A stretch of DNA of 64,000 bases from Jannaschia marina (GCF_013404595.1 NZ_JABVAX010000001.1:124001-188000); one strand, 5' to 3'; shown: positions 4,379-39,926, numbered from the stretch's first letter. The notes: generated from the sequence alone by a model not told the origin. Program-made: numbers and translations.

Positions 4379-5722
4379 TCAGGTTTTGCCCGAGAACCAC
4401 CCGGCCTTGCGCAGAACCGCGGCCATCTCCGGCGAGGCGACGGTGACGCCGTGGACGAGCTCCGGCGTCGGGGCGTAGGGCACGGCCGTGGTGGAGACGA
4501 GCGGGGCCGACCAGCCGGATTTGACCGGGTCCAGCCCCGCGCGCCGGCAGGCCGCATCGACGCTCGCCCGCCCGCAGAAGGCCGTCCCGCGCATCACGTC
4601 CCAAGGGTAGGGCAGTTCGGCCCAGACCGCCGTATCGGGGTGCAGCGCGCCGCCGGTGGCCCGGTGCCAATAGGCGACGTCCGCCGCCATCAGCCGCAGC
4701 ACCTTGCCCGGCAGTATGTGGTCGAGGAGCGCGTCCATTCCCATGGCCTGCTGCGTGGCGATCCATCCGGTGCGGGCGCTGTTCCACGCCTGCGCGGCGA
4801 TGTTCCAGCTGCTCGAGTCGTTGCCGCGCTTCACGATCATCGTGTCGAGGTCGATATCGCTGCGCTGCCAGATCTCCCAGAGGTCGTCGGCCACGTCCCG
4901 CAGGATCATCGTCCAGGCCCCGATGAGCCGTCCCTTCTCGCCCTCGTCAAGATGCGCCAGCACGCGTGGCTCGGGCAGGACGCGGGCGAGGAGGGGCCAG
5001 TTCGTCGCCCGTTCCAGAAGCGCCGCGCAAAGGTCGTCGAAGGGCCGGTCCTGTGCGGTGTTGGTGAAGGCGCTGCGCCGGCGTTTGCGGGCGGCGTAGT
5101 AGGCCACGAAGGCCGCCGACCAGATGTCGCGTTCCATGTCGGCAGGTGTCACGTCGGCCAGAAGGCCGGCCTTGCCGGTGACGCGGTAGGACAGGAAGCG
5201 CAATTCCTTGCGGTAGCGGATGAGCTTGGCCCGCATCCGGGCCAGCAGGCGGAATCGCTTGTTGAAGGCATGATTGCCGAGGCCGCTCGTCGCCGCGCGC
5301 GCGGCGCGGTCGGGCCGGTCGTATTTGAAGGACGCGGCCCCCGGTGCCACGCCGAGCCGCTCCGACAGGAAGGTGAGGAAGGCGGTGATCTCGGCCGGTG
5401 CGGCGTGCGGGTAGATCCGCGCGCGAGGGTCGTTGCTCATGGCGATGTCCTCGGCCCAGAGCGCCTGCGCGGTTCGGACCTGGCGGGCCATGTCCACCGG
5501 CTCGAACCAGCCCTCGGGCATGGAGGAGCGACGCGGTCGCCGCGACCTGCGGGCCAGCATCGCGGAGATGCGCCGGTCGGCGGCGATCTCGGGCGCGGCG
5601 GCGATGATCTGCGCGACGGTTTCAGGCATGTCGCGCGACAGAAGCGTCGCGTGGAGCGCGCCGGGAACCGCCGACGGCGCGATGTCGGCACGGGGTTCCC
5701 CGATCGTCCGACGCCAGATCAC
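4379..5722 (-). CDS. conserved hypothetical protein coupled to ubiH-type gene
   Basis: A 447-residue protein that I do not recognise. I place the start at GTG 5722 because it overlaps the upstream hydroxylase stop as GTGA, indicating translational coupling; longer versions would run through that gene. No signal peptide or strong membrane segment is seen. The middle is rich in basic and aromatic residues (for example FNKRFRLLARMRAKLIRYRK), and a WN-containing conserved-looking block lies near residues 305-325. Codon use is like its neighbours, so it looks like a real gene. Function unknown. Confidence 0.75.
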   Translation of the reverse strand: MIWRRTIGEPRADIAPSAVPGALHATLLSRDMPETVAQIIAAAPEIAADRRISAMLARRSRRPRRSSMPEGWFEPVDMARQVRTAQALWAEDIAMSNDPRARIYPHAAPAEITAFLTFLSERLGVAPGAASFKYDRPDRAARAATSGLGNHAFNKRFRLLARMRAKLIRYRKELRFLSYRVTGKAGLLADVTPADMERDIWSAAFVAYYAARKRRRSAFTNTAQDRPFDDLCAALLERATNWPLLARVLPEPRVLAHLDEGEKGRLIGAWTMILRDVADDLWEIWQRSDIDLDTMIVKRGNDSSSWNIAAQAWNSARTGWIATQQAMGMDALLDHILPGKVLRLMAADVAYWHRATGGALHPDTAVWAELPYPWDVMRGTAFCGRASVDAACRRAGLDPVKSGWSAPLVSTTAVPYAPTPELVHGVTVASPEMAAVLRKAGWFSGKT

Positions 5723-6921
5723 GCGCGCATCAGCCGTGGCAGGTCGCCGGTGATCCCCGCGGCCTCGGCGATGAACTTGCGGCGCAGGGCGGGCATGGCG
5801 GAGATCGCGCCCATGCCGAGATCCCGACCGAGGCGCAGGAGCGGATTGTCGTTCGAGAAGAGCCGGTTCACCGCGTCGGTGGCGACGCCCATGACCGAGG
5901 TGTCGAACCGCCGCCACCGCTGGTAGCGGGCCAGGACGTCGGGCGCGCCGATGTCCTCCCCGCGCGCGCGGGCGGCACCGAGCACGTCCGCGAGGGCGGC
6001 CACGTCCTTCACGCCGAGGTTAAGGCCCTGTCCCGCGATCGGGTGGATGCCATGGGCGGCATCCCCCACGAGCGCGACGCGGTCTGCCACGAAGGCGTTG
6101 GCGAGCGTCAGGTTGAGCGGATAGCTGTGCCGCGCCCCGGCGAGGCGGATCGCGCCGAGGAAGTCTCCGAAGCGTGGGCGCAGGATGTCGAGGTAGGCCG
6201 CGTCGGACAGGGCGTCGAGATTGGCGGCCGTGGCGGCGTCCTCCGTCCAGACGATGCTGGAGCGGTTGCCCCGGAGCGGCAGGATCGCCAGCGGACCGGC
6301 CGGCATGAAGAACTGGTGGGCAACGCCCTCGTGCGGCCGCTCGTGTTCGACCGCGCAGACGAGCGCTGTCTGGCCGTAGTCGCGCCCCGAGCGGGAGATG
6401 CCGGCCCGCTCCGCCACGCCGCTCTTCCGTCCGTCGGCCCCGAGGAGGAGGCGCGCTCGGAGCGTCTCGCCGGCGTCGACCTCCACGCCGCGCGCGGTGA
6501 CGTGCTGCGCTGTGACGGTGGTACCGAAGCGCATCTCGATGCGCTCGCTTGCCTCGCAGGCGGCCAGCAGGGCGGGGCGCAGGTGCCGGTCCTCGATCAT
6601 CTGGCCCATGAAGGGTTCCCCGATCTCGGCGGCCTCGAACGACAGGTGCAATGGCGACGCACCCTCGCCGGCGCGGCCGTCGCTGGCGCGGATGCCGGTC
6701 ATCGGCTGTGCCCGCTCGGCAAGCTCGTCCCAGAGCCCGAGCGCGCGCAGGAGGCGGACCGACCCGAGCGCCATCGCATAGGCGCGGCCGTCGAAGTTGC
6801 CGTCGAATGTGGCGCGGGGCTGCGCGTCGATCACGGTGGAGCGGAGGCCGGTCTCGGCCAGGGCGAGTGCCGTGAGCGGGCCGCTCAGGCCCCCGCCGAC
6901 GATGAGGACGTCTGTGGTCAT
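5719..6921 (-). CDS. UbiH/UbiF/VisC/COQ6 family FAD-dependent hydroxylase
   Basis: A 400-residue flavoprotein monooxygenase of the ubiquinone-biosynthesis hydroxylase family. Seen directly: FAD Rossmann motif VGGGLSGPLTAL (8-19), the ADGRKS segment (162-167) and the second FAD motif GDAAHGIHPIAGQGLN (287-302), all in normal spacing. The expected reaction is aromatic-ring hydroxylation of a polyprenylated quinone precursor at the inner membrane; which ring position cannot be told from sequence. It is divergent from the amidase gene across 84 bases. The ATG at 6921 begins right before the flavin motif and is preferred over a much longer open frame upstream. Confidence 0.9.
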   Translation of the reverse strand: MTTDVLIVGGGLSGPLTALALAETGLRSTVIDAQPRATFDGNFDGRAYAMALGSVRLLRALGLWDELAERAQPMTGIRASDGRAGEGASPLHLSFEAAEIGEPFMGQMIEDRHLRPALLAACEASERIEMRFGTTVTAQHVTARGVEVDAGETLRARLLLGADGRKSGVAERAGISRSGRDYGQTALVCAVEHERPHEGVAHQFFMPAGPLAILPLRGNRSSIVWTEDAATAANLDALSDAAYLDILRPRFGDFLGAIRLAGARHSYPLNLTLANAFVADRVALVGDAAHGIHPIAGQGLNLGVKDVAALADVLGAARARGEDIGAPDVLARYQRWRRFDTSVMGVATDAVNRLFSNDNPLLRLGRDLGMGAISAMPALRRKFIAEAAGITGDLPRLMRA

Positions 6922-7005: not shown

Positions 7006-8331
7006 ATGCAGGAGTGGTTGTGGGCGAGTGCGGCGGACCTCGGGCGGGGCATTGCGCGGGGCGAGATCGACCCGGAGGCGCTCTGCGAGACGTATCTTGC
7101 CGCGATCGCCGAGCGTGACCCGGATCGCCAGATCTACGCCCGTCTGACCGAGGACCGTGCCCGCGTCGAAGCCGCCGCGGCGGCGGATCGGGCGCGCGCC
7201 GGGTTGCGGCGCGGACCGCTCGACGGGGTGCCGGTCAGCTGGAAAGACCTCTTCGACAGCGCGGGCGTGGCGACGGAGGCGGGCTCGGCGCTCCTGAAGG
7301 GGCGGATACCGGCGGAGGATGCGGCCGTGCTGGCGAACGCGACCCACGGGGGCGCGGTCTGCCTGGGCAAGACGCATATGAGCGAGCTGGCCTTCTCGGG
7401 CCTCGGCCTCAACCCGGTGACGGCCACGCCGCCGAACCGGCACGACGCGGCGCTGGTACCGGGCGGGTCGTCCTCGGGGGCGGCGGCCTCGGTGGCTTTG
7501 GGGCTGGCCCCGCTCGCCATCGGGTCGGACACCGGCGGTTCGGTGCGCAACCCCTCGGCCTGGAATGACCTCGTGGGCCTCAAGACGACGCTCGGCCGGG
7601 TCGACGCGACCGGGACGGTGCCGCTCGTTGAGACGATGGACACGATCGGGCCGCTTGCGCGCAGCGTCGAGGACGCGGCCCTTGCGCTCGCGCTCCTCGA
7701 AGGCGGCCGACCCGCCGATCTCGCGGGGGCGACACTTCGGGGCAAGCGCCTCCTCGTGCTCGCCGACTACGCCGACACCAGCCGCGACGCGCCCCGCGCG
7801 GCTTTCAAACATGCGGTCGACCGGTTCGAAGATGCGGGTGCCATCGTGACGCGCGCCACCGTCGCCGCCGTGCAGGAGGCGATGGACCTGACCCCGCTTC
7901 TCTTCGCGCCTGAGGGTTATGCAATCTGGCGGGAGGTGATCGAGGCGAACCCGCAGCTGATGTTCGACCGCATCCTCGAACGCTTCCGGCAGGGGCGCGA
8001 CACGTCCGCCGCCGATGTCCTCGACGCGCACCGCAAGCGGCGGGCGGCGGAGGCTGCCTACCTGCGCGCGACGGCGGGCTACGACGCGGTGATCCTGCCG
8101 ACCGCGGCGATCCTGCCGCCGGACCGCGCGCGGCTGATGACGGATGAGGCGTACTACGTCGAGGAGAACCTGATGGCGCTCCGCAACACCCGTGTCGGCA
8201 ACGTCCTCGGCCTCTGCGGCCTGACCTTGCCGACAGGCGTGCCGATGTGCGGCGTCATGGCGCTCTGCCCGCCGATGCAGGAGGAGAGGTTGTTGCGGCT
8301 TGGGGCGGCGATGGAGGTGGTGCTGGGGTGA
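7006..8331 (+). CDS. amidase (amidase signature family)
   Basis: A 441-residue amidase signature enzyme hydrolysing an amide bond of unknown substrate. The Ser-cisSer-Lys triad is visible: K80 in PVSWKDLFD, the GGSSSG block (153-158), and the nucleophile S179 in GSDTGGSVRNP. I chose ATG 7006 because GGAGG lies five bases upstream (6996-7000); an in-frame ATG at 6991 has no such site. No GatB or GatC neighbour is present, so it is more likely a catabolic or detoxifying amidase than GatA. Confidence 0.92.
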   Translation: MQEWLWASAADLGRGIARGEIDPEALCETYLAAIAERDPDRQIYARLTEDRARVEAAAAADRARAGLRRGPLDGVPVSWKDLFDSAGVATEAGSALLKGRIPAEDAAVLANATHGGAVCLGKTHMSELAFSGLGLNPVTATPPNRHDAALVPGGSSSGAAASVALGLAPLAIGSDTGGSVRNPSAWNDLVGLKTTLGRVDATGTVPLVETMDTIGPLARSVEDAALALALLEGGRPADLAGATLRGKRLLVLADYADTSRDAPRAAFKHAVDRFEDAGAIVTRATVAAVQEAMDLTPLLFAPEGYAIWREVIEANPQLMFDRILERFRQGRDTSAADVLDAHRKRRAAEAAYLRATAGYDAVILPTAAILPPDRARLMTDEAYYVEENLMALRNTRVGNVLGLCGLTLPTGVPMCGVMALCPPMQEERLLRLGAAMEVVLG

Positions 8332-8448
8332 GGGCGGGCCCCGCACGAAGCGGACTGTCCGATCCGCCGGGATGCCGACGCAGCCGGGTCTGTTGCACTC
8401 GCATGGAATGGAAGCGAAGCCCCGGGCCCGGGCCGGGGGCGGCGCAAG
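8332..8448. other. short convergent intergenic region with GC hairpin
   Basis: Between the amidase (plus) and the small amber-interrupted gene (minus) lies a GC-rich stretch with CCCCGG (8420-8425) and CCGGGG (8433-8438) as an inverted repeat. There is no T-run on either side. It may help end transcription from both sides, but that is inferred only from position. Confidence 0.35.
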
Positions 8449-32253: not shown

Positions 32254-33128
32254 CAGCGGGCCTCCGGCGCAGCGAGGTCGCGCAGGGCGTTGCCGACGAG
32301 GTTCGCCGCCAGAACCGACAGGAAGATCAGCGTGGCGGGGCCGAGCAGCAACCAGGGTGCGATGGGCACGTAGAGGCGCGACTCGGCCAGCAGCGCGCCC
32401 CATTCCGCGTGCGGTGGCTGTACGCCGAGTCCGAGGAAGGAGAAGCCCGAGATCGCGCCGATCGTGCTGCCGAGCGCAAGGCTCGCCACGATGCCGACCT
32501 GTGCGGCCACGCCGGGCAGCACGTGGCCCATCACGATGCGCCGGCGCGGGATACCGGCGAGGCGCGCGGCGATGACGTGGGGGCGGCCCCGTGCGTCGAG
32601 TGCCATGGAGCGGGCGAGGCGCGCATACCACGCCCAATCCGCCGCGATCAGCGCGATCAGCAGGTTGACGAAGCCCGGGCCGAGCAGGCCCAGAACCGCG
32701 AACGCCAGAACGAGGCCAGGCAGGTTCATCGCGATATCGGCAAGGCGCATCAGCACTGCGTCCAGCAGCCCGCCAGCGAGGCCCGCCAGCGTGCCGACGA
32801 CGAGGCCGATACCGAAGATCGCGCCCAGCACCGCGAGAGCCGCTCCGATAGAGCGATGCGCGCCGTCCATGATGCGACTGAATATGTCGCGCCCGGTCGC
32901 GTCGGTACCGAACGGATGGGTCAGGCTCGGGGGCTTCAGCGCGTTGGCGTAGTCCGGCAGATCGGGGGGGTGCGGCGTCCAGGCGAGCCCGATGGTCGCG
33001 AAGGCCAGGAGTGCAAGGCCCAGAAGCGCACCCGCCCGCCCGGCGCGGTGGTGCCAGAGGCACCGCAATACGCTGCGATCGACAGGAGCTTCCAACGGTG
33101 TGGGCCGGGTGGGATTCAGCAGTGTCAT
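32253..33128 (-). CDS. ABC transporter permease 2 (NikC/OppC/DppC type)
   Basis: A 291-residue inner-membrane protein with about six helices and the family motifs HPFGTDATGRDIFSRIMDG (70s) and the EAA-like loop AARLAGIPRRRIVMGHVLPG. This is the NikC/DppC-type permease of peptide or nickel importers. Its ATG (33126-33128) overlaps the stop of permease 1 by four bases, and its stop overlaps the ATPase start. By operon context it would form part of a B12-regulated uptake system, now without an intact ATPase gene. Confidence 0.9.
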   Translation of the reverse strand: MTLLNPTRPTPLEAPVDRSVLRCLWHHRAGRAGALLGLALLAFATIGLAWTPHPPDLPDYANALKPPSLTHPFGTDATGRDIFSRIMDGAHRSIGAALAVLGAIFGIGLVVGTLAGLAGGLLDAVLMRLADIAMNLPGLVLAFAVLGLLGPGFVNLLIALIAADWAWYARLARSMALDARGRPHVIAARLAGIPRRRIVMGHVLPGVAAQVGIVASLALGSTIGAISGFSFLGLGVQPPHAEWGALLAESRLYVPIAPWLLLGPATLIFLSVLAANLVGNALRDLAAPEAR

Positions 33129-34099
33129 GGCAGACGCTCCCTGAGCCGCGGGTCGAGGATCAGCGCGATCAGGTCCACGACGAGGGCAGCCGTCACGTAG
33201 CTGAGCGCGGCAATCAGCACGAAGCCCTGGATCGCGGGATAGTTGCGGGCTGCCAGCGCTTCCAGCACGTAGGCACCAAGGCCGGGCCAGGAGAAGATCG
33301 CCTCGATCAGCGGCGCGCCCCCGATCAGCGCGCCGACGCTGACGCCGATGGCCGTCAGAAACGGCAGAATGGCGTTCGGCAGCGCGTGGCGCAGCAGAAT
33401 GCGGCGTTCGGTGGCCCCGCGGGCGCGGGCGACCTCGGCATAGCCGCTGGCCATCGCCTCCAGCAGCCCGGCACGCAGCAGCTGCGTCCAGCTCGCCCCG
33501 CGGTCGAGGCCGATGATGAAGGCCGGGATCAGTGCGGCCTTGAAAGTCGGCTCCGACAGCACGCGGCCCATGCCGAGGCCGACGACCAGAAAGGTCAATG
33601 CGAGCAAGGCGAAGACGAAGGTCGGCAGCGCCGCGCCGATCTGGGTGTAGAGCCGGACGATCCGGTCGGGCCAGCGGTCGCGATAGGCGACGGCGACGAG
33701 GGCAAGGATCAGCGACACGACCGTCGATACGACCAATGCCAGCGACAACAGCAGGAACGTCGCGGGCAGGCGTTCCATGATCTCCTGCCAGACGGGCAGG
33801 CGGCTGGTGAAACTCTGGCCGAGATCGCCCCGCAACAGATCTCCGAGCCAGCTGACGAACTGCGTGACGAGCGATCGGTCCAATCCGAGTGCGATGCGGG
33901 CGGCCTCGATCTCGGTGGCCGTCGGATCCTGTACGCCGCGGGCAAGCAGGACACGCTCGGCCGGATCTCCGGGCGCGAGCGGCATGAGGGCCCAGACGAG
34001 GACGCTGGCGGCGAAGGCCGTCAGCACCGCCTGGGCGATGCGGAACGCGGCGGCCGGCAGACGGCCGCCGCCGCGAAGGAAGGCGGGACGACCGGTCAC
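33125..34099 (-). CDS. ABC transporter permease 1 (NikB/OppB/DppB type)
   Basis: A 324-residue permease with six helices: MPLAPGDPAE after helix 1, LPATFLLLSLALVVS, and the EAA-type loop ARARGATERRILLRHALPNA, all standard for NikB/DppB proteins. I place the start at GTG 34099, which overlaps the binding-protein stop as GTGA; a much longer open frame upstream lies inside that gene. Coupled to permease 2 by an ATGA overlap. Confidence 0.9.
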   Translation of the reverse strand: MTGRPAFLRGGGRLPAAAFRIAQAVLTAFAASVLVWALMPLAPGDPAERVLLARGVQDPTATEIEAARIALGLDRSLVTQFVSWLGDLLRGDLGQSFTSRLPVWQEIMERLPATFLLLSLALVVSTVVSLILALVAVAYRDRWPDRIVRLYTQIGAALPTFVFALLALTFLVVGLGMGRVLSEPTFKAALIPAFIIGLDRGASWTQLLRAGLLEAMASGYAEVARARGATERRILLRHALPNAILPFLTAIGVSVGALIGGAPLIEAIFSWPGLGAYVLEALAARNYPAIQGFVLIAALSYVTAALVVDLIALILDPRLRERLP

Positions 34100-35616
34100 T
34101 CGTTCGGTGCCGTATCCCACTTGATGCGGTTCCAAGCGACGGCGGGCACGTAGTCGGACCAGGCATCGGTGACCAGCGCGCGCTCGATCAGGATGGTGGC
34201 GTTGAAGACGTAGGGGTCCTCCTCGACAAGGATTGCCTGGATTTCGCGCAGCATCTCGTAGCGGGTCTCCTCGTTCATGGTGACGTCGAGCGCTTCGATC
34301 AGTTTGTTGACACGTTCGTTGCAGTAGCCGCCATGGTTCCGGTCGCCTTTGCAGGCGACATAGCGATTGAGAAAACCGCTGACCGAGCCGACCGTTGCTG
34401 TACCTGTCGCGACCAGGGCTAGATCCCAGGGCACGAGAGCGTTGCCGGCCGCCTCGTTGATGTTGTCGACCGAGGAGATATCGGCCTCGATGCCGATTTC
34501 CCGCAGGTAGGACTGCATCGCGTTCGAAAGCGGCACGAGGTCGGGTTGCGGCGGGTAGATCAAGAGCGTGACCGAGAGCGTTTCGCCGTCGCGCATCCGG
34601 GTGTCGCCGTCGCGGACCCAGCCGGCATCGTCGAGTAGCGTGTTGGCCGCGTCCACGTCGTGGCGATAGTTCTCGACCGCCCAAGGGAAGCGCGGATTGT
34701 AGAGGCCGGTGGCCGGTATCTTGGCACCGTGGAAGACCTCGTTCGCCAATTCCGCGTAGGCCACGGCCAGCATGACGGCCTTGCGGACGGCAACCTCCTC
34801 GAAGGCACCGTCGCTCACGTTCATGATGCCGAGGAAACCGCCCGTGGACGGCGCGCCCAGGGCGAGGTTGACGTTGGGCGTCGCCGCGAAGACCGGCCCG
34901 GCCGAGATCGGCGGATAGAGCGCGATGTCCACCTCACCGTTCTGTACCGCGAGGATGCGGGCGTTGGCGTCCGAAACGAAGCGCAGGTGCACGCCCTCCA
35001 TTGTCGGCATTCCACGCCAGTAGCCTTCGTGGCGCTCGGCGATCATGCGCTGTTCATCGAGATCGACCAGTTTGAAAGGCCCCGTATGGATGCCCGCGCC
35101 CTCCAGCGCCTCGAAGTCCTCGCCGGCGGCCAGCACCGGTTCGACGTCGATGATCATCAGGCGGTTCTCATGCGCCAGGATGCTCGGCAGCTCGGGCATG
35201 GGGACGCCCGTCCGCACGGTGATCTCGCGCGTGCCGGTCTGGGTGAAGGTCGCCTCGGCGGGCACCTGGGCCTGCGTGCCCGAGTTGCGTTCGCGGTGAT
35301 ACTCGATCGCGGCCAGTACGGCGGGAACGTCCATGACCTTGCCGTTCTGGAACGTCACGCCGTCTCGGATCGTGATGATCCAGGTCGTGTCGTCCGTGCG
35401 CTCCAGGCTCTCGGCCAGCCAGGGCGTGATCGTGCCGTCGGGCTGGAACTTCATCAGCAGTTCGCCTTGGCCAAACTCCTGCATCCAGAAACCCTGGTTG
35501 GCCGGGTCCATGGAGCGGATCTGAAAGCTGGTCGCCATGTCGATGATCCGGTCGGCCGAGGCAGGCAGGGCCGCCAGAGTCAGGGCCGCTGCGAGAGCGA
35601 GGGGTCTGGGTTTCAC
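34096..35616 (-). CDS. ABC transporter substrate-binding protein (SBP family 5, nickel/peptide type)
   Basis: A 506-residue periplasmic protein, start GTG 35616 overlapping the preceding gene's stop as GTGA. Signal peptide 1-22 (LALAAALTLAALPASA), then a family 5 binding-protein fold with ITIRDGVTFQNGKVMD, ALEGAGIHTGPFKLVDLDEQ and AVRKAVMLAVAYAEL-like segments. Family 5 members bind peptides, nickel or metal chelates. Downstream of a cobalamin riboswitch, the ligand is more likely cobalt, a cobalt chelate or a corrinoid precursor, which is inference. Confidence 0.88.
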   Translation of the reverse strand: MKPRPLALAAALTLAALPASADRIIDMATSFQIRSMDPANQGFWMQEFGQGELLMKFQPDGTITPWLAESLERTDDTTWIITIRDGVTFQNGKVMDVPAVLAAIEYHRERNSGTQAQVPAEATFTQTGTREITVRTGVPMPELPSILAHENRLMIIDVEPVLAAGEDFEALEGAGIHTGPFKLVDLDEQRMIAERHEGYWRGMPTMEGVHLRFVSDANARILAVQNGEVDIALYPPISAGPVFAATPNVNLALGAPSTGGFLGIMNVSDGAFEEVAVRKAVMLAVAYAELANEVFHGAKIPATGLYNPRFPWAVENYRHDVDAANTLLDDAGWVRDGDTRMRDGETLSVTLLIYPPQPDLVPLSNAMQSYLREIGIEADISSVDNINEAAGNALVPWDLALVATGTATVGSVSGFLNRYVACKGDRNHGGYCNERVNKLIEALDVTMNEETRYEMLREIQAILVEEDPYVFNATILIERALVTDAWSDYVPAVAWNRIKWDTAPNE

Positions 35617-36398
35617 GGGGTCGTCTCCGGTGCTTGGGAAGGGGTCGTGCGGGCAGCCCGCGCGGTGTGGAACCTGAGGTCGTCGGCCGTGCCACCTGCC
35701 ATCAGGACGTCGGCGACGAAGCGGCGGACCGCTGCCCGGTCGGGCAGGCGGTACCAGTGGCCGTGGGGATAGAGCGCGAGGATTGGGCCGCGGTTGCAGG
35801 GATAGATGCAGCCGGTGCGGGTCGTCAGACACCGGTCGAAGACACCGGCTTCCTTCAACTCCTCCTTGAGAAGATGCGTGAAGGAGGCCGCGCCGTGGAC
35901 CGCGCAACGCGGGCCGGTGCAGACGAGGAGGTGGAACTCGAAATCGGGTGGGTCGGCCCATCCCGGCTTGCCAAGGCGCGGGGAGGTTGCCTCGACGGAT
36001 CGGGCTCGGCGACTGAGAGCGGCGGTGGCCTGCGCCGCGAGCGAACCGGCGTCAGTGGCGGGGTCGGGACCCATCTCGAGTGTGGTGTCGGCGTTGTCCC
36101 CCCGCGTCCGCCAGTCGGCCATGACGCCGGGAAGCCAGGTCAGCAGACCTTCCGGGAAAGGCACGCCGAAGGGCTGGACGCGGATGCGACGGTGGCCTTC
36201 GGCGCGCATCGCATCGAGCGCGTCGACCAGGCTTGGCTCCGTCCCCTCCAGCCGGATCAGGCGCACGGGGCCCGGGGTTGCGGCGCGCGCGGCGGCCTCG
36301 AGCCGGGTGAGCGCGCCGCGGCTGAGCGAAGGAGCGGAGATGACGAATAGCGTGGCCGGCTGGCGGCCGCTCAAGGCCAGGGTTTGGTCATCGGACAA
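35613..36398 (-). CDS. CbiX-like domain fused to thioredoxin-like [2Fe-2S] ferredoxin domain
   Basis: A 261-residue protein. Residues about 14-125 look like one CbiX/sirohydrochlorin-chelatase lobe (LFVISAPSL, RRIRVQPFGVPFPEGL), but the histidines expected in that active site are not seen. Residues about 153-245 form a thioredoxin-like ferredoxin with C160, C165, C197 and C201 (LLVCTGPRCA, CIYPCNRGP). The start is TTG 36398, with GAGG upstream; no in-frame ATG exists before a stop. It heads the ABC operon below a cobalamin riboswitch, so a cobalt or corrin-related redox role is likely. Confidence 0.82.
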   Translation of the reverse strand: MSDDQTLALSGRQPATLFVISAPSLSRGALTRLEAAARAATPGPVRLIRLEGTEPSLVDALDAMRAEGHRRIRVQPFGVPFPEGLLTWLPGVMADWRTRGDNADTTLEMGPDPATDAGSLAAQATAALSRRARSVEATSPRLGKPGWADPPDFEFHLLVCTGPRCAVHGAASFTHLLKEELKEAGVFDRCLTTRTGCIYPCNRGPILALYPHGHWYRLPDRAAVRRFVADVLMAGGTADDLRFHTARAARTTPSQAPETTP

Positions 36399-36472: not shown

Positions 36473-36534
36473 CACACGGCTCTCCTTCCGGGACACCCCG
36501 CCCGGTTTGATTGCGTTCGGCGCGTGCGCGCCGC

Positions 36535-36720
36535 CGATGGTAGGTCTCCTGACTCGCGGGTCTGGGCTTCCCCGAACCTTCCCGGACACTCGCGTCCAGT
36601 GGCTTCGACGGGGTCGCTCGCCGCTCACAGTTGCGGGGGCAGTCACGGATTTGGTGCCTGTTGGCTAAGCCGCACCGTGTTCCCTTTTCATCCCTCGGAC
36701 GCAGCGGTCTTCGGGAACCA
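36535..36720 (-). ncRNA. cobalamin (adenosylcobalamin) riboswitch
   Basis: On the minus strand the class-defining elements appear in order: GGGAACACGGTGCGGCTTAG, GCCAA, the core TGACTGCCCCCGCAACTGTG (within 36624-36650), GCCACTGG (36597-36604), CCGGGAAGG, and the closing AGTCAGGAGACCTACC (about 36537-36552). This is the B12 box pattern. Binding of cobalamin would reduce expression of the downstream CbiX-ferredoxin and ABC transporter genes. A 7-bp GC palindrome at about 36518-36534 may belong to the expression platform. 5' boundary approximate. Confidence 0.92.
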
Positions 36721-36928
36721 TCGCGGCAAACGGTGACCGGAGTTGCGAATGGCGTCAAGCCGATCAATGGGCGTGGCCGCCTACGGCGTTTCGCTAAGAT
36801 CCATTCCGCCTCAGTCACGCAACAGACCTCTGCGGAACGGCTCCGAGCGCATGGCGAGCCGCGTCGTTTGAAGTCGGCATCGGTTCAAGATGGTCTCTAC
36901 CCCGCCGTTGAAGACCCTGGGCCCCGGT
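36721..36928. other. spacer between riboswitch and MbnH-type gene
   Basis: About 200 bases upstream of the riboswitch and downstream of the copper operon on the same strand. It should contain the riboswitch promoter. I see no convincing gene and no rho-independent terminator; short frames on both strands look random. Confidence 0.35.
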
Positions 36929-38047
36929 CTACGGCATGGCCCGGTCGACCCGTGCGGCATGGTCTTCCGGCCAGGGATCGGCATGGCGGGGATCTGTGAG
37001 GAAGGTCTCATCGGTCAGGCTTTCAAGAAAGGCGATCAGTTCCGCTGTCTCCGCTTCCGTGATCTCGAAGCCGACCAGCAGGCCGCTCGTGCCCGGATGC
37101 CCGCCGCGACCACCTTGTGCGTAATGCGCTATGGCCGCCGCCAGATCGGCGACCGAGCCGTCATGCATATAGGGTGCCGTCACCGCGACGTTGCGAAGCG
37201 AAGGCGTGCGGAAGCGGCCCTCGTCCTCCGGGCGGCCGGTGAATTCGATCAGGCCGGGCGTGCGGGTGGGCAGGATCGCGTGCAGGCCGGTGTTGTGGAA
37301 ACCCGTTTCCTGCCAAGGCGCGGTCGCAGTCTGGAGGTTGTCGGTCAGGAGCGTACCGACATGGCAATGATAGCATTCGAACCGGTGGTCGAAGAAATGC
37401 TGTTCCCCGCGCTTGGCGGCCTCGGATATGGCATCCTCATCACCCCCATGGCGATAACGGTCATAGGGGCTGTCGAAGGAAGTCAGGCTGCGCTGGAAGG
37501 CCGCCAGCGCCCGTGTGACGGTGAAGAGGTCGGCTTGCGCATCTTCGCGTTCGGGGAACGCCTTCGGGAAGGCATCAGCATAAAAGGGATCGGCCATGAG
37601 ACGCTCGAAGATCGCGACGTCGTGCCCTCCGCTGCCCATTTCGCGCGGGTCGTCGCCGAAGAGGGGGACGAGCGCCTGGAACTCAATGCTGTCCATGTGC
37701 GGATTGGCCCAGGTGAGAATCGGCATGTAGCCCACGTTGGCAAGCCCTTGCGCGTTCTTGCGCGTAGCCTCGCCGTCGATTCCGATGCTGACCGCGCGCC
37801 CGTCCGAAAACGCGAGGCTCTGCACATGGCAGGAGGCGCAGGCCATTGTGCCGTCGAGCGATAGCCGACCGTCGTAGAAGAGGTGTCGTCCCAGGTCGAC
37901 CTTGGCCTCCGACATCGGGTTGTCCTCGGGTACGGGCGGGGGCGGAATAAAGTCGGGGAGGTTCCAGCTCCAGTCCTCGGTCCCGGCCGGGGCGGCGATC
38001 GCCCCGGCCAGGATGAGGACGCCTGCGCGAAGCGTCTTGTGCGCCAT
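36929..38047 (-). CDS. MbnH-type di-haem cytochrome c peroxidase family protein
   Basis: A 372-residue exported protein with signal peptide (1-21) and two haem c sites, CASCH (70-74) and CYHCH (225-229). Family features include GRHLFYDGRLS, MHDGSVADLAAAI and FRTPSLRNV. It starts three bases after the MbnP-containing gene, the pairing known as the metallo-mystery or MbnP/MbnH pair, in which MbnH oxidises a tryptophan of MbnP to create a copper site. That partnership is established for methanotroph homologues and inferred here. Confidence 0.88.
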   Translation of the reverse strand: MAHKTLRAGVLILAGAIAAPAGTEDWSWNLPDFIPPPPVPEDNPMSEAKVDLGRHLFYDGRLSLDGTMACASCHVQSLAFSDGRAVSIGIDGEATRKNAQGLANVGYMPILTWANPHMDSIEFQALVPLFGDDPREMGSGGHDVAIFERLMADPFYADAFPKAFPEREDAQADLFTVTRALAAFQRSLTSFDSPYDRYRHGGDEDAISEAAKRGEQHFFDHRFECYHCHVGTLLTDNLQTATAPWQETGFHNTGLHAILPTRTPGLIEFTGRPEDEGRFRTPSLRNVAVTAPYMHDGSVADLAAAIAHYAQGGRGGHPGTSGLLVGFEITEAETAELIAFLESLTDETFLTDPRHADPWPEDHAARVDRAMP

Positions 38048-38050
38048 GGC

Positions 38051-39391
38051 TCAGCGCCCCGAGATCAGGATCTGCGCCTCGGCCGGTGCCCCCATGTAGG
38101 GTAGGCCGAACTTCGGCATCACGGTCGTGCAGTCGGGATCGTCGGGAAAGGACATGCAGCCTGCCGCTGTTTCGGGGGCATTGACCGTAAGATCGGCTCC
38201 CGCCACGACGGGAGCCGGGTCGATCACGACGCTGCCGGTGTCCGGATCGAAGCCCGTTAACGTGATTGTGGGACGGTTCGGGTTGGCACAGGTGCCCGTC
38301 GGAGGGTCGGTCCGGCCTTCAGACGGGCACATGGTCGAGCCGAGATGGAGGAACCAGCCCTCGATTTCGGTATCCTGCGGCAGCATGTCGATCTTCACGA
38401 AGCGGTAGCCGGCGCGCCAGTTCCAGAACATCGACGTCAGGTTGAGCGGCGAGGGCGCGACGGTCGGGTCACCGTGATTCACCGCGAAGGGCACGCCGAG
38501 GGTGAAGGTCAGCCCATCGTATTCGCCGTCGGGCACCTGGCCACGCAATGTAGTGTTCAGCTGCGCCGTACCGTTCGTGCAGGTGGCGGATCCATCCTCG
38601 AAGTCCAGCAGCGCCGTCGCACCGGTCTGCCAGATGTCCTCCTTCAGCGTGATCGCGATCTCGGTCCCGTCGGAGCGGATGACCTTTGGGTCGGAGACGA
38701 AGACGCGGTAGTCGCTGAATCTCACCGCCGTCCCCTTGCTGCCGAGACCTGTATAGGTTTCGCCGCACGCAAAAGGCGCGCCATCGACCTCCGCGGCGAA
38801 GGCGACCTCGATGGGACGCATCGCCATGTCGCCATGGCCGGTCTCTGTGATGGCCGTCTTGATAGGTTCGCCATGCTCCGAGTGTGCCGTTCCGGCATCG
38901 GTGCTCTCCATCACATGCTGCGAATGGTCGACCGCGCCCTCGCCGCGCGGATCGACGTTGACGACAACGTCGACACGGCCCGCGCGCTCGAAGATCAGCG
39001 TGACGGGGATCTCTTCGCCAAGCTCGAACGGATCCCCGCCCAGGCCCTCCAGCATGATGTGCAGACCCGACGGTTCGAGCGCCACGGTCTCACCCGGTGC
39101 GACCGGGATCCCATCTTCCTGCGGCAGCATCCGCATGATGCCGTCCGTCATCTCGGTGCGGTGCAGCGACGTGCCCTCGAACCCCGGGGCGTCGACGCCG
39201 ATCAGGCGATCGGGTTCGCTGCCGTCGTTACGGATCGTCAGGTAGACGATGCCGGAAGGTGCCACGCCGGGTGTCGGGTGGGTGTAGGGGTGCCCGATGA
39301 ACAGGTCACCGCCGGCGAACTCATGGGCCGCGGCGGGCAGGGTCAGGGAAGTTGCGACAAGAAGGGCCGCTGTTCTAAAGGATGTCGTCAT
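38051..39391 (-). CDS. fusion of copper chaperone PCuAC domain and MbnP-like domain
   Basis: A 446-residue exported protein. After a signal peptide (1-22), residues about 25-150 form a PCuAC domain with the copper pattern H77/M81/M86/M88 and H111-x-M113 (GLHIMLEGL). A His/Met-rich linker follows (155-190; HSQHVMES, HSEHGE, HGDMAM). Residues about 192-446 are an MbnP/TIGR04052-type domain with C209 and further paired cysteines (TMCPSEG, GTCANPN, GCMSFPDDPDC). ATG 39391 follows GAGAGA. It likely carries copper in the periplasm together with the adjacent MbnH. Confidence 0.87.
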   Translation of the reverse strand: MTTSFRTAALLVATSLTLPAAAHEFAGGDLFIGHPYTHPTPGVAPSGIVYLTIRNDGSEPDRLIGVDAPGFEGTSLHRTEMTDGIMRMLPQEDGIPVAPGETVALEPSGLHIMLEGLGGDPFELGEEIPVTLIFERAGRVDVVVNVDPRGEGAVDHSQHVMESTDAGTAHSEHGEPIKTAITETGHGDMAMRPIEVAFAAEVDGAPFACGETYTGLGSKGTAVRFSDYRVFVSDPKVIRSDGTEIAITLKEDIWQTGATALLDFEDGSATCTNGTAQLNTTLRGQVPDGEYDGLTFTLGVPFAVNHGDPTVAPSPLNLTSMFWNWRAGYRFVKIDMLPQDTEIEGWFLHLGSTMCPSEGRTDPPTGTCANPNRPTITLTGFDPDTGSVVIDPAPVVAGADLTVNAPETAAGCMSFPDDPDCTTVMPKFGLPYMGAPAEAQILISGR

Positions 39392-39587
39392 GTGTCTCTC
39401 TCGTGGAGGATCGAATGGAAAAGGGGGGCGCCGGGCCGTCCGCTGGGCATGGGCACGAGCCGGACTTTCGTGATCGGGGCACCTTCGTAGATGCCGACGC
39501 GAAATCGACTGCGCATGAGTGCGTGTGCGGCACTGCACGTCGGCCGCGATCCGACCGATCAGGCCGGGTGTCCGCGAAGCTAAAAGA
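39392..39587. other. spacer inside the copper operon
   Basis: About 196 bases between the small DUF2946-like gene and the PCuAC-MbnP gene, both on the minus strand. I see no gene and no strong hairpin. The gap is large for one operon, so a separate promoter for the fusion gene is possible. Confidence 0.35.
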
Positions 39588-39926
39588 TCAGACCGCGGGC
39601 GGGCCCCGGTGAGGGGGAGGGCCGGACCACGGGGACGGGGCAACGACGACAGCCAGCTCTTGCGGAACGACGGTCGGGTTGGGCACGAAGGCTGTCCAGG
39701 CAGGTGTCGGCGCGGCGGTCTCGGGAAACTGCAGTGCTGACAGGCAGGGCCCGTGCTCCTCGATCTCGGCATCGATCGGTTCGCCGTCAGCGCTCATGGT
39801 GATCGTCACCAACTCGGCTCCACGGCAGATCACAACGCTGTCGAAACCCGCTAAATCTGCCAGCACGGCCCCGGCGCGTGGCAGCAACAGGCCGATGCCC
39901 AGGAGGAGGATCAATAGGACGCGCAT
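39588..39926 (-). CDS. DUF2946-like small exported protein
   Basis: A 112-residue protein with a signal or membrane segment (1-22; LLILLLGIGLLLPRAGAV) and then VVICRGAELVTITMSADGEP and EEHGPCLSA. The two cysteine-containing blocks resemble DUF2946, small proteins often found in copper loci. The C-terminus is proline-rich. ATG 39926 is used; a GTG lies one codon upstream. Its position before a PCuAC-MbnP fusion supports a metal-related role, but the identification is tentative. Confidence 0.65.
   Translation of the reverse strand: MRVLLILLLGIGLLLPRAGAVLADLAGFDSVVICRGAELVTITMSADGEPIDAEIEEHGPCLSALQFPETAAPTPAWTAFVPNPTVVPQELAVVVAPSPWSGPPPHRGPPAV

Follow-up and report, generated by a model that had tools for sequence, protein, structure and literature searches.

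In Jannaschia marina, a member of the Rhodobacteraceae, a PCuAC copper chaperone domain and an MbnP domain are joined in one reading frame, immediately ahead of the gene for MbnH. All the component families are known, and the joining of PCuAC to MbnP is a rare but recurrent domain fusion within a known copper system. The fusion gene is the second of three successive genes on the minus strand at positions 36929-39926 of the window, by which is meant the whole stretch of 64,000 nucleotides analysed. On balance, we think that the three genes constitute a copper-responsive periplasmic copper-handling operon, controlled by a leader, in which copper would pass within one chain matured by MbnH. All three were found where an earlier note had placed them, and the stop codon of the fusion is separated from the ATG of mbnH by exactly 3 bases (38048-38050). 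The features of the locus are as follows.

39588..39926, minus strand: uORF-like gene, 112 aa, probable copper-responsive leader (ORF call, Cys/RGPP features)
39392..39587, minus strand: untranslated spacer of 196 nt between the uORF and the fusion (between two reading frames)
38051..39391, minus strand: PCuAC-MbnP fusion gene, 446 aa, one signal peptide (profile matches, AlphaFold2 model)
38966..39295, minus strand: PCuAC domain, residues 33-142 (PF04314, copper motif, fold match)
38816..38929, minus strand: flexible His/Met-containing linker, approximately residues 155-192 (low pLDDT, comparison with PCuAC tails)
38081..38812, minus strand: MbnP domain, residues 194-437 (TIGR04052, PF20243, alignment, fold match)
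36929..38047, minus strand: mbnH, 372 aa, di-haem MauG-like enzyme (TIGR04039, 6e1c match, haem motifs)

A longer version of the fusion reading frame begins at an upstream ATG; the start giving 446 residues was used throughout. The coding signal is unbroken across the gene, including the linker, with the GC content of codon position 3 being the highest or joint highest in every stretch, and the gene sits within a 719-kb contig. The fusion proposed in the earlier note was borne out for both halves, each of which lies well above its curated cut-off and keeps its key residues. The N-terminal half matches PF04314 (8.4e-28, 96.9 bits against a cut-off of 29.4), the genome search giving the same place, and its copper motif, taken as H-x10-M-x21/22-H-x-M, is complete (H77-x10-M88-x22-H111-x-M113). 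The C-terminal half matches TIGR04052 (276.7 bits, cut-off 140) over residues 194-437 and PF20243 (1.5e-37, 129.8 bits, cut-off 27). In an alignment of 33 MbnP rows it retains the WxW motif (W323, W325), H306, H349 and the conserved cysteines 209, 271, 355, 368, 412 and 421. By sequence, the closest solved structures are 7l6g for MbnP, 9rez and 6p1g for PCuAC, and 6e1c for MbnH. The AlphaFold2 model of the fusion contains two well-predicted domains, and Foldseek matched it to MbnP (7l6g, E 8e-23, TMt 0.78) and, for PCuAC, to 9yah (TMt 0.91), the PmoF PCuAC and TTHA1943, so the N-terminal half is a PCuAC domain and the C-terminal half has the MbnP fold.

PCuAC proteins deliver copper for cytochrome oxidase assembly. 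The domain in the fusion resembles the chaperones of PF04314 (TTHA1943, AccA, PmoF PCuAC) in its full length, complete H/M motif, His/Met tail and fold, but differs in that the tail runs on into an MbnP domain. The linker, described beforehand as His/Met-rich, does carry His and Met and is disordered (pLDDT <50 over most of residues 160-185); however, the stand-alone PCuAC proteins of relatives end in a comparable tail, and most of the linker is accordingly such a tail extended into MbnP. A signal peptide is present on unfused MbnP proteins (L048, L049) but absent from the fused MbnP, which must therefore be exported together with PCuAC. If signal peptidase cuts after AAA (window 39310-39330, minus strand), the mature fusion would begin with His (HEF...); a histidine brace involving such a residue is reported for some PCuAC domains, as related in a passage of PMC12537917 (Fisher 2019).

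The claim of a di-haem MbnH three bases downstream was confirmed by the short gap, a TIGR04039 score of 399.9 bits (cut-off 362.85), and two CxxCH motifs, CASCH and CYHCH; the protein matches 6e1c at 4.5e-97. Compared to the MbnP-MbnH pair of Methylosinus trichosporium OB3b (TIGR04052/TIGR04039, PDB 7l6g and 6e1c), the present pair is alike in the MbnP domain, the adjacent MbnH, the motifs and the folds, and differs in having an MbnP without its own signal peptide, fused behind PCuAC. Cu(I) binding by the M. trichosporium MbnP is reported (PNAS, 2021) to depend on the conversion by MbnH of the first Trp in the WxW motif into kynurenine. In the public record of the Paracoccus seriniphilus plasmid NZ_CP067130.1, the gene at L108:8810-9979 (plus strand) is called 'methanobactin export MATE transporter MbnM'; this is a misnaming, as the product is MbnH (TIGR04039, 440.9 bits). 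Just behind mbnH in the window lies a strongly matching cobalamin riboswitch (RF00174, 124.8 bits; 36522-36736, minus strand), followed at 32256-36398 on the same strand by a 261-aa protein without a Pfam match and an ABC importer of the peptide/nickel type (SBP_bac_5, two BPD_transp_1). The genes headed by the riboswitch are a B12/cobalt-type operon, separate from that of the fusion.

The domain order was looked for in 295 genomes from the order (these twice), the 20 from the genus, 385 from the class, 398 from the phylum, 397 from the family and 196 genomes related to a second genome, G1235, in total 1,988 genome searches with some genomes counted more than once, and also in 72,556 plasmid records and by a scan of GTDB contigs. 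The fusion is not a common architecture. It was present in only two of about 40 MbnP-bearing genomes, the inspection leaving aside a few weak MbnP matches (G960 and five genomes of one genus). So rare an arrangement must be dispensable for the function of MbnP. No MbnP was found in the other 19 genomes of the genus searched, none of the 72,556 plasmid records covers 80% of either fusion, and no PCuAC was present in the 420-625 aa reading frames near other MbnP genes. The cyanobacterial Trichormus variabilis plasmids NZ_CP047243.1 and NC_007410.1 carry an MbnP which is 42% identical to that of the window.

The search across genomes proposed in the earlier note thus yielded one further fusion, in G1235, while most relatives were found to keep separate genes. 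In relatives among the Rhodobacteraceae (MbnP 56-60% identical), PCuAC and MbnP have a gene each, in many cases within one operon (MbnP operons at L048, L049, L050, L085, L086, L108, L121 and L122). A frequent order starts with uORF-MbnP-MbnH, after which comes PCuAC or else a PCuAC-NF033672 protein plus PCuAC, sometimes with the addition of SCO or PepSY_TM-like genes. Tateyamaria omphalii and Paracoccus seriniphilus are among the species with an MbnP-MbnH-PCuAC operon. The 'copper uptake system-associated protein' of Allorhizobium and Agrobacterium, with matches over residues 23-286, was considered as a further fusion and rejected, its C-terminal domain being NF033672 and not MbnP. Proteins of this kind (Allorhizobium, Tateyamaria, Paracoccus) also join a second, C-terminal domain to PCuAC and are encoded in copper operons, some of them together with MbnP-MbnH, but the domain joined on bears no relation to MbnP. 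The order PCuAC-MbnP-MbnH in unfused form, possibly an intermediate toward fusion, occurs in G659, which belongs to another family within the class: the frame holding MbnP comes immediately after a PCuAC gene (L054:6851-8700, minus strand). The literature searched on PCuAC/MauG and MbnP/MbnH, a search outside which the key MbnP/MbnH papers fell, describes no PCuAC-MbnP fusion.

G1235 is from the same family but from another genus. The family in question is probably the Rhodobacteraceae in the broad GTDB sense, since G022 carries the MbnP and MbnH found on a Paracoccus bogoriensis contig. The fusion of G1235 (L120, 6584-7951) is a 455-aa PCuAC-MbnP protein (PF04314 6.6e-25; TIGR04052 177.5 bits), which overlaps MbnH (5430-6587) by four bases and is preceded by a CruR-like ORF (8033-8380) with CPLC and RAPP. 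The gene order, uORF-fusion-MbnH, is that of the window. The MbnP of G1235 is divergent, on a long branch. In the MbnP tree the window protein falls within a Rhodobacteraceae clade (100/99) and the G1235 fusion groups (100/100) with L093, whose genome lies outside the class; a common clade for both fusions is rejected (AU p=1.3e-9), as it also is in the MbnH tree (AU p=2.7e-4), which shows the matching pattern. In the PCuAC tree both fused domains lie in one subclade of five rows (99/99), where they are not sisters (AU p 5.8e-5); the remaining three rows are stand-alone PCuAC proteins, from the window genome (C11:690741), from G037 and from a Jannaschia plasmid. A single origin of both fusions by plain descent was therefore rejected by the AU tests on MbnP, MbnH and PCuAC. 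The simplest reading of the trees would be two independent joinings, with one PCuAC subclade having been joined twice to different MbnP-MbnH pairs. Alternatively, the fusion may have arisen once, with its MbnP-MbnH part later replaced or its PCuAC part exchanged.

The first gene of the locus had been taken for a DUF2946-like exported protein and a member of the same periplasmic module. The label stands to the extent of a weak match to PF11162 (18.7 bits), but this is below the cut-off of 23.7 and the protein contains no CxxC or CxxxC metal motif, its sole cysteine being Cys61 within HGPC. Two members of the family have been characterised, CruR from B. pertussis and CutF from R. capsulatus. Both are upstream ORFs which control the next gene: while being synthesised they detect copper by way of CxxC or CxxxC, and near the C-terminus they have a RAPP or Pro-rich motif resembling an arrest sequence (PMC9426467, PMC9973294). 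MbnPH-like and PCuAC genes are reported from operons of this type (PMC9426467). The uORF of the window resembles these leaders in being the first gene of a copper operon, in its hydrophobic signal peptide, in an RxPP motif (RGPP, two residues before the C-terminus, RGPP-AV) and in the 196-nt spacer behind it, which is long, as is usual behind cruR genes. The distance from Cys61 to Arg107 is 46, identical to that between Cys93 and Arg139 in CruR, and is 45-47 in the uORFs of most relatives. Only one of the 530 reading frames of at least 60 residues in the window has both features. In contrast to CruR and CutF, it has a single Cys in place of CxxC/CxxxC and falls below the Pfam cut-off, and no CutF-type hairpin shielding the ribosome binding site was found in the spacer, the RNA fold of which is no better than that of shuffles (z 0.38). 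The uORF mRNA is rich in C and poor in G at nt 180-360, which would suit a Rho site, such as the copper-dependent Rho termination of the CruR type would need; as Pro codons produce this composition, it was not used as evidence.

Single-Cys ORFs of the CruR/DUF2946-like kind, with RAPP 46-48 residues past the Cys, also adjoin PCuAC genes elsewhere, sometimes as a second leader within the same operon: L048:3756-4127 (minus), L049:8220-8606 (plus), L013:1102-1494 (minus), L019:1105-1497 (minus) and L033:1037-1405 (plus). The two which were scanned pass PF11162 (L033, 24.0 bits; L049, 26.6 bits). We treat the uORF as CruR/CutF-like and not as a confirmed member of DUF2946. The RGPP at the CruR-like spacing from the Cys, the position as first gene and the long spacer suggest that it is probably a copper-responsive leader of the CruR/CutF type, ie a regulator acting during its own translation, and most likely not a periplasmic partner of the fusion protein.

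How the operon might work can be outlined from its parts. The leader would tune expression of the downstream genes to copper while it is itself being translated. The second gene would yield one exported protein in which a PCuAC chaperone is flexibly tethered to MbnP, and MbnH, if it acts as in M. trichosporium, would oxidise W323, the first Trp of WxW, to kynurenine and so make a Cu(I) site. The tether would hold the exchange partner at high local concentration, and copper would pass intramolecularly between the PCuAC and MbnP sites. The copper would probably be destined for the assembly of haem-copper oxidase, the known role of PCuAC, or serve as a reserve when copper is scarce. As both copper sites are intact and tethered, the function that calls for the fewest assumptions is exchange inside a single chain. 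A related arrangement is found in the CorA/MopE proteins of methanotrophs with CorB/SACCP, which have a Cu(I) site made by conversion of Trp to kynurenine, a partner gene for a di-haem protein resembling cytochrome c peroxidase, and repression by copper (PMC3912023). CorA/MopE is, however, not markedly similar to MbnP in sequence (PMC3621798), is surface-associated and has no PCuAC domain. Copper repression is likewise described for the CruR operon (PMC9426467). By analogy with these two systems, and because the operons of relatives carry uptake and assembly genes, the leader would most likely shut the operon off at high copper.

Recurrence of the fusion in a different MbnP lineage, together with the presence of PCuAC in MbnP-MbnH operons, suggests that PCuAC and MbnP really work together. 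To this extent the idea of one periplasmic copper module stands, without the upstream gene as a member. We propose, tentatively, that PCuAC is the dedicated exchange partner of the kynurenine site of MbnP and that selection has fused them at least twice independently into a self-contained copper relay matured by an enzyme; the proposal draws on the one PCuAC subclade, the two unrelated MbnP-MbnH pairs and the identical gene order under a putative copper-sensing leader. It is also conceivable, if rather unlikely, that the fusion merely secures equal amounts and joint export of two copper-supply proteins, with no direct exchange of copper between the domains. The long flexible linker and the model of the fusion, in which no fixed interface between the domains is predicted (pTM 0.66), would fit that explanation, as would the fact that most relatives do with separate genes in an operon; but one operon already gives co-expression, and the joining has occurred in two MbnP lineages with the same PCuAC subclade.

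Quite improbable, in our judgement, is a main role as a periplasmic copper buffer or detoxifier, with two Cu(I) sites and a His/Met linker, and with a CutF-type leader that switches it on in response to copper. CutF does turn on a copper-detoxifying oxidase in R. capsulatus, a member of the same family (PMC9973294), and the linker contains His and Met. However, neither efflux nor oxidase genes lie beside the fusion, the spacer yielded no hairpin of the CutF type, the PCuAC, SCO or PepSY_TM genes in the operons of relatives are typical of copper uptake and oxidase assembly, and MopE/CorA is made at low copper (PMC3912023). That an assembly or sequencing error has joined two genes which are separate in the cell, as the earlier note allowed should relatives keep them apart, can hardly be credited: relatives do keep separate genes, and the MbnP-free genomes of the genus offer no sister copy for direct confirmation, but the coding signal continues over the linker with all motifs intact, the contig is long, the signal peptide of MbnP is cleanly absent, and the same fusion in the same gene order in a second genome excludes such an error.

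The presence of the fusion in two MbnP lineages points to PCuAC as the partner of MbnP, which bears on the role of MbnP outside the methanotrophs and on the source and destination of its copper. As a single-chain system it makes the transfer of copper to or from a kynurenine-dependent site directly measurable. The operon would also link MbnPH to copper-sensing upstream ORFs, including those of the single-Cys subtype.
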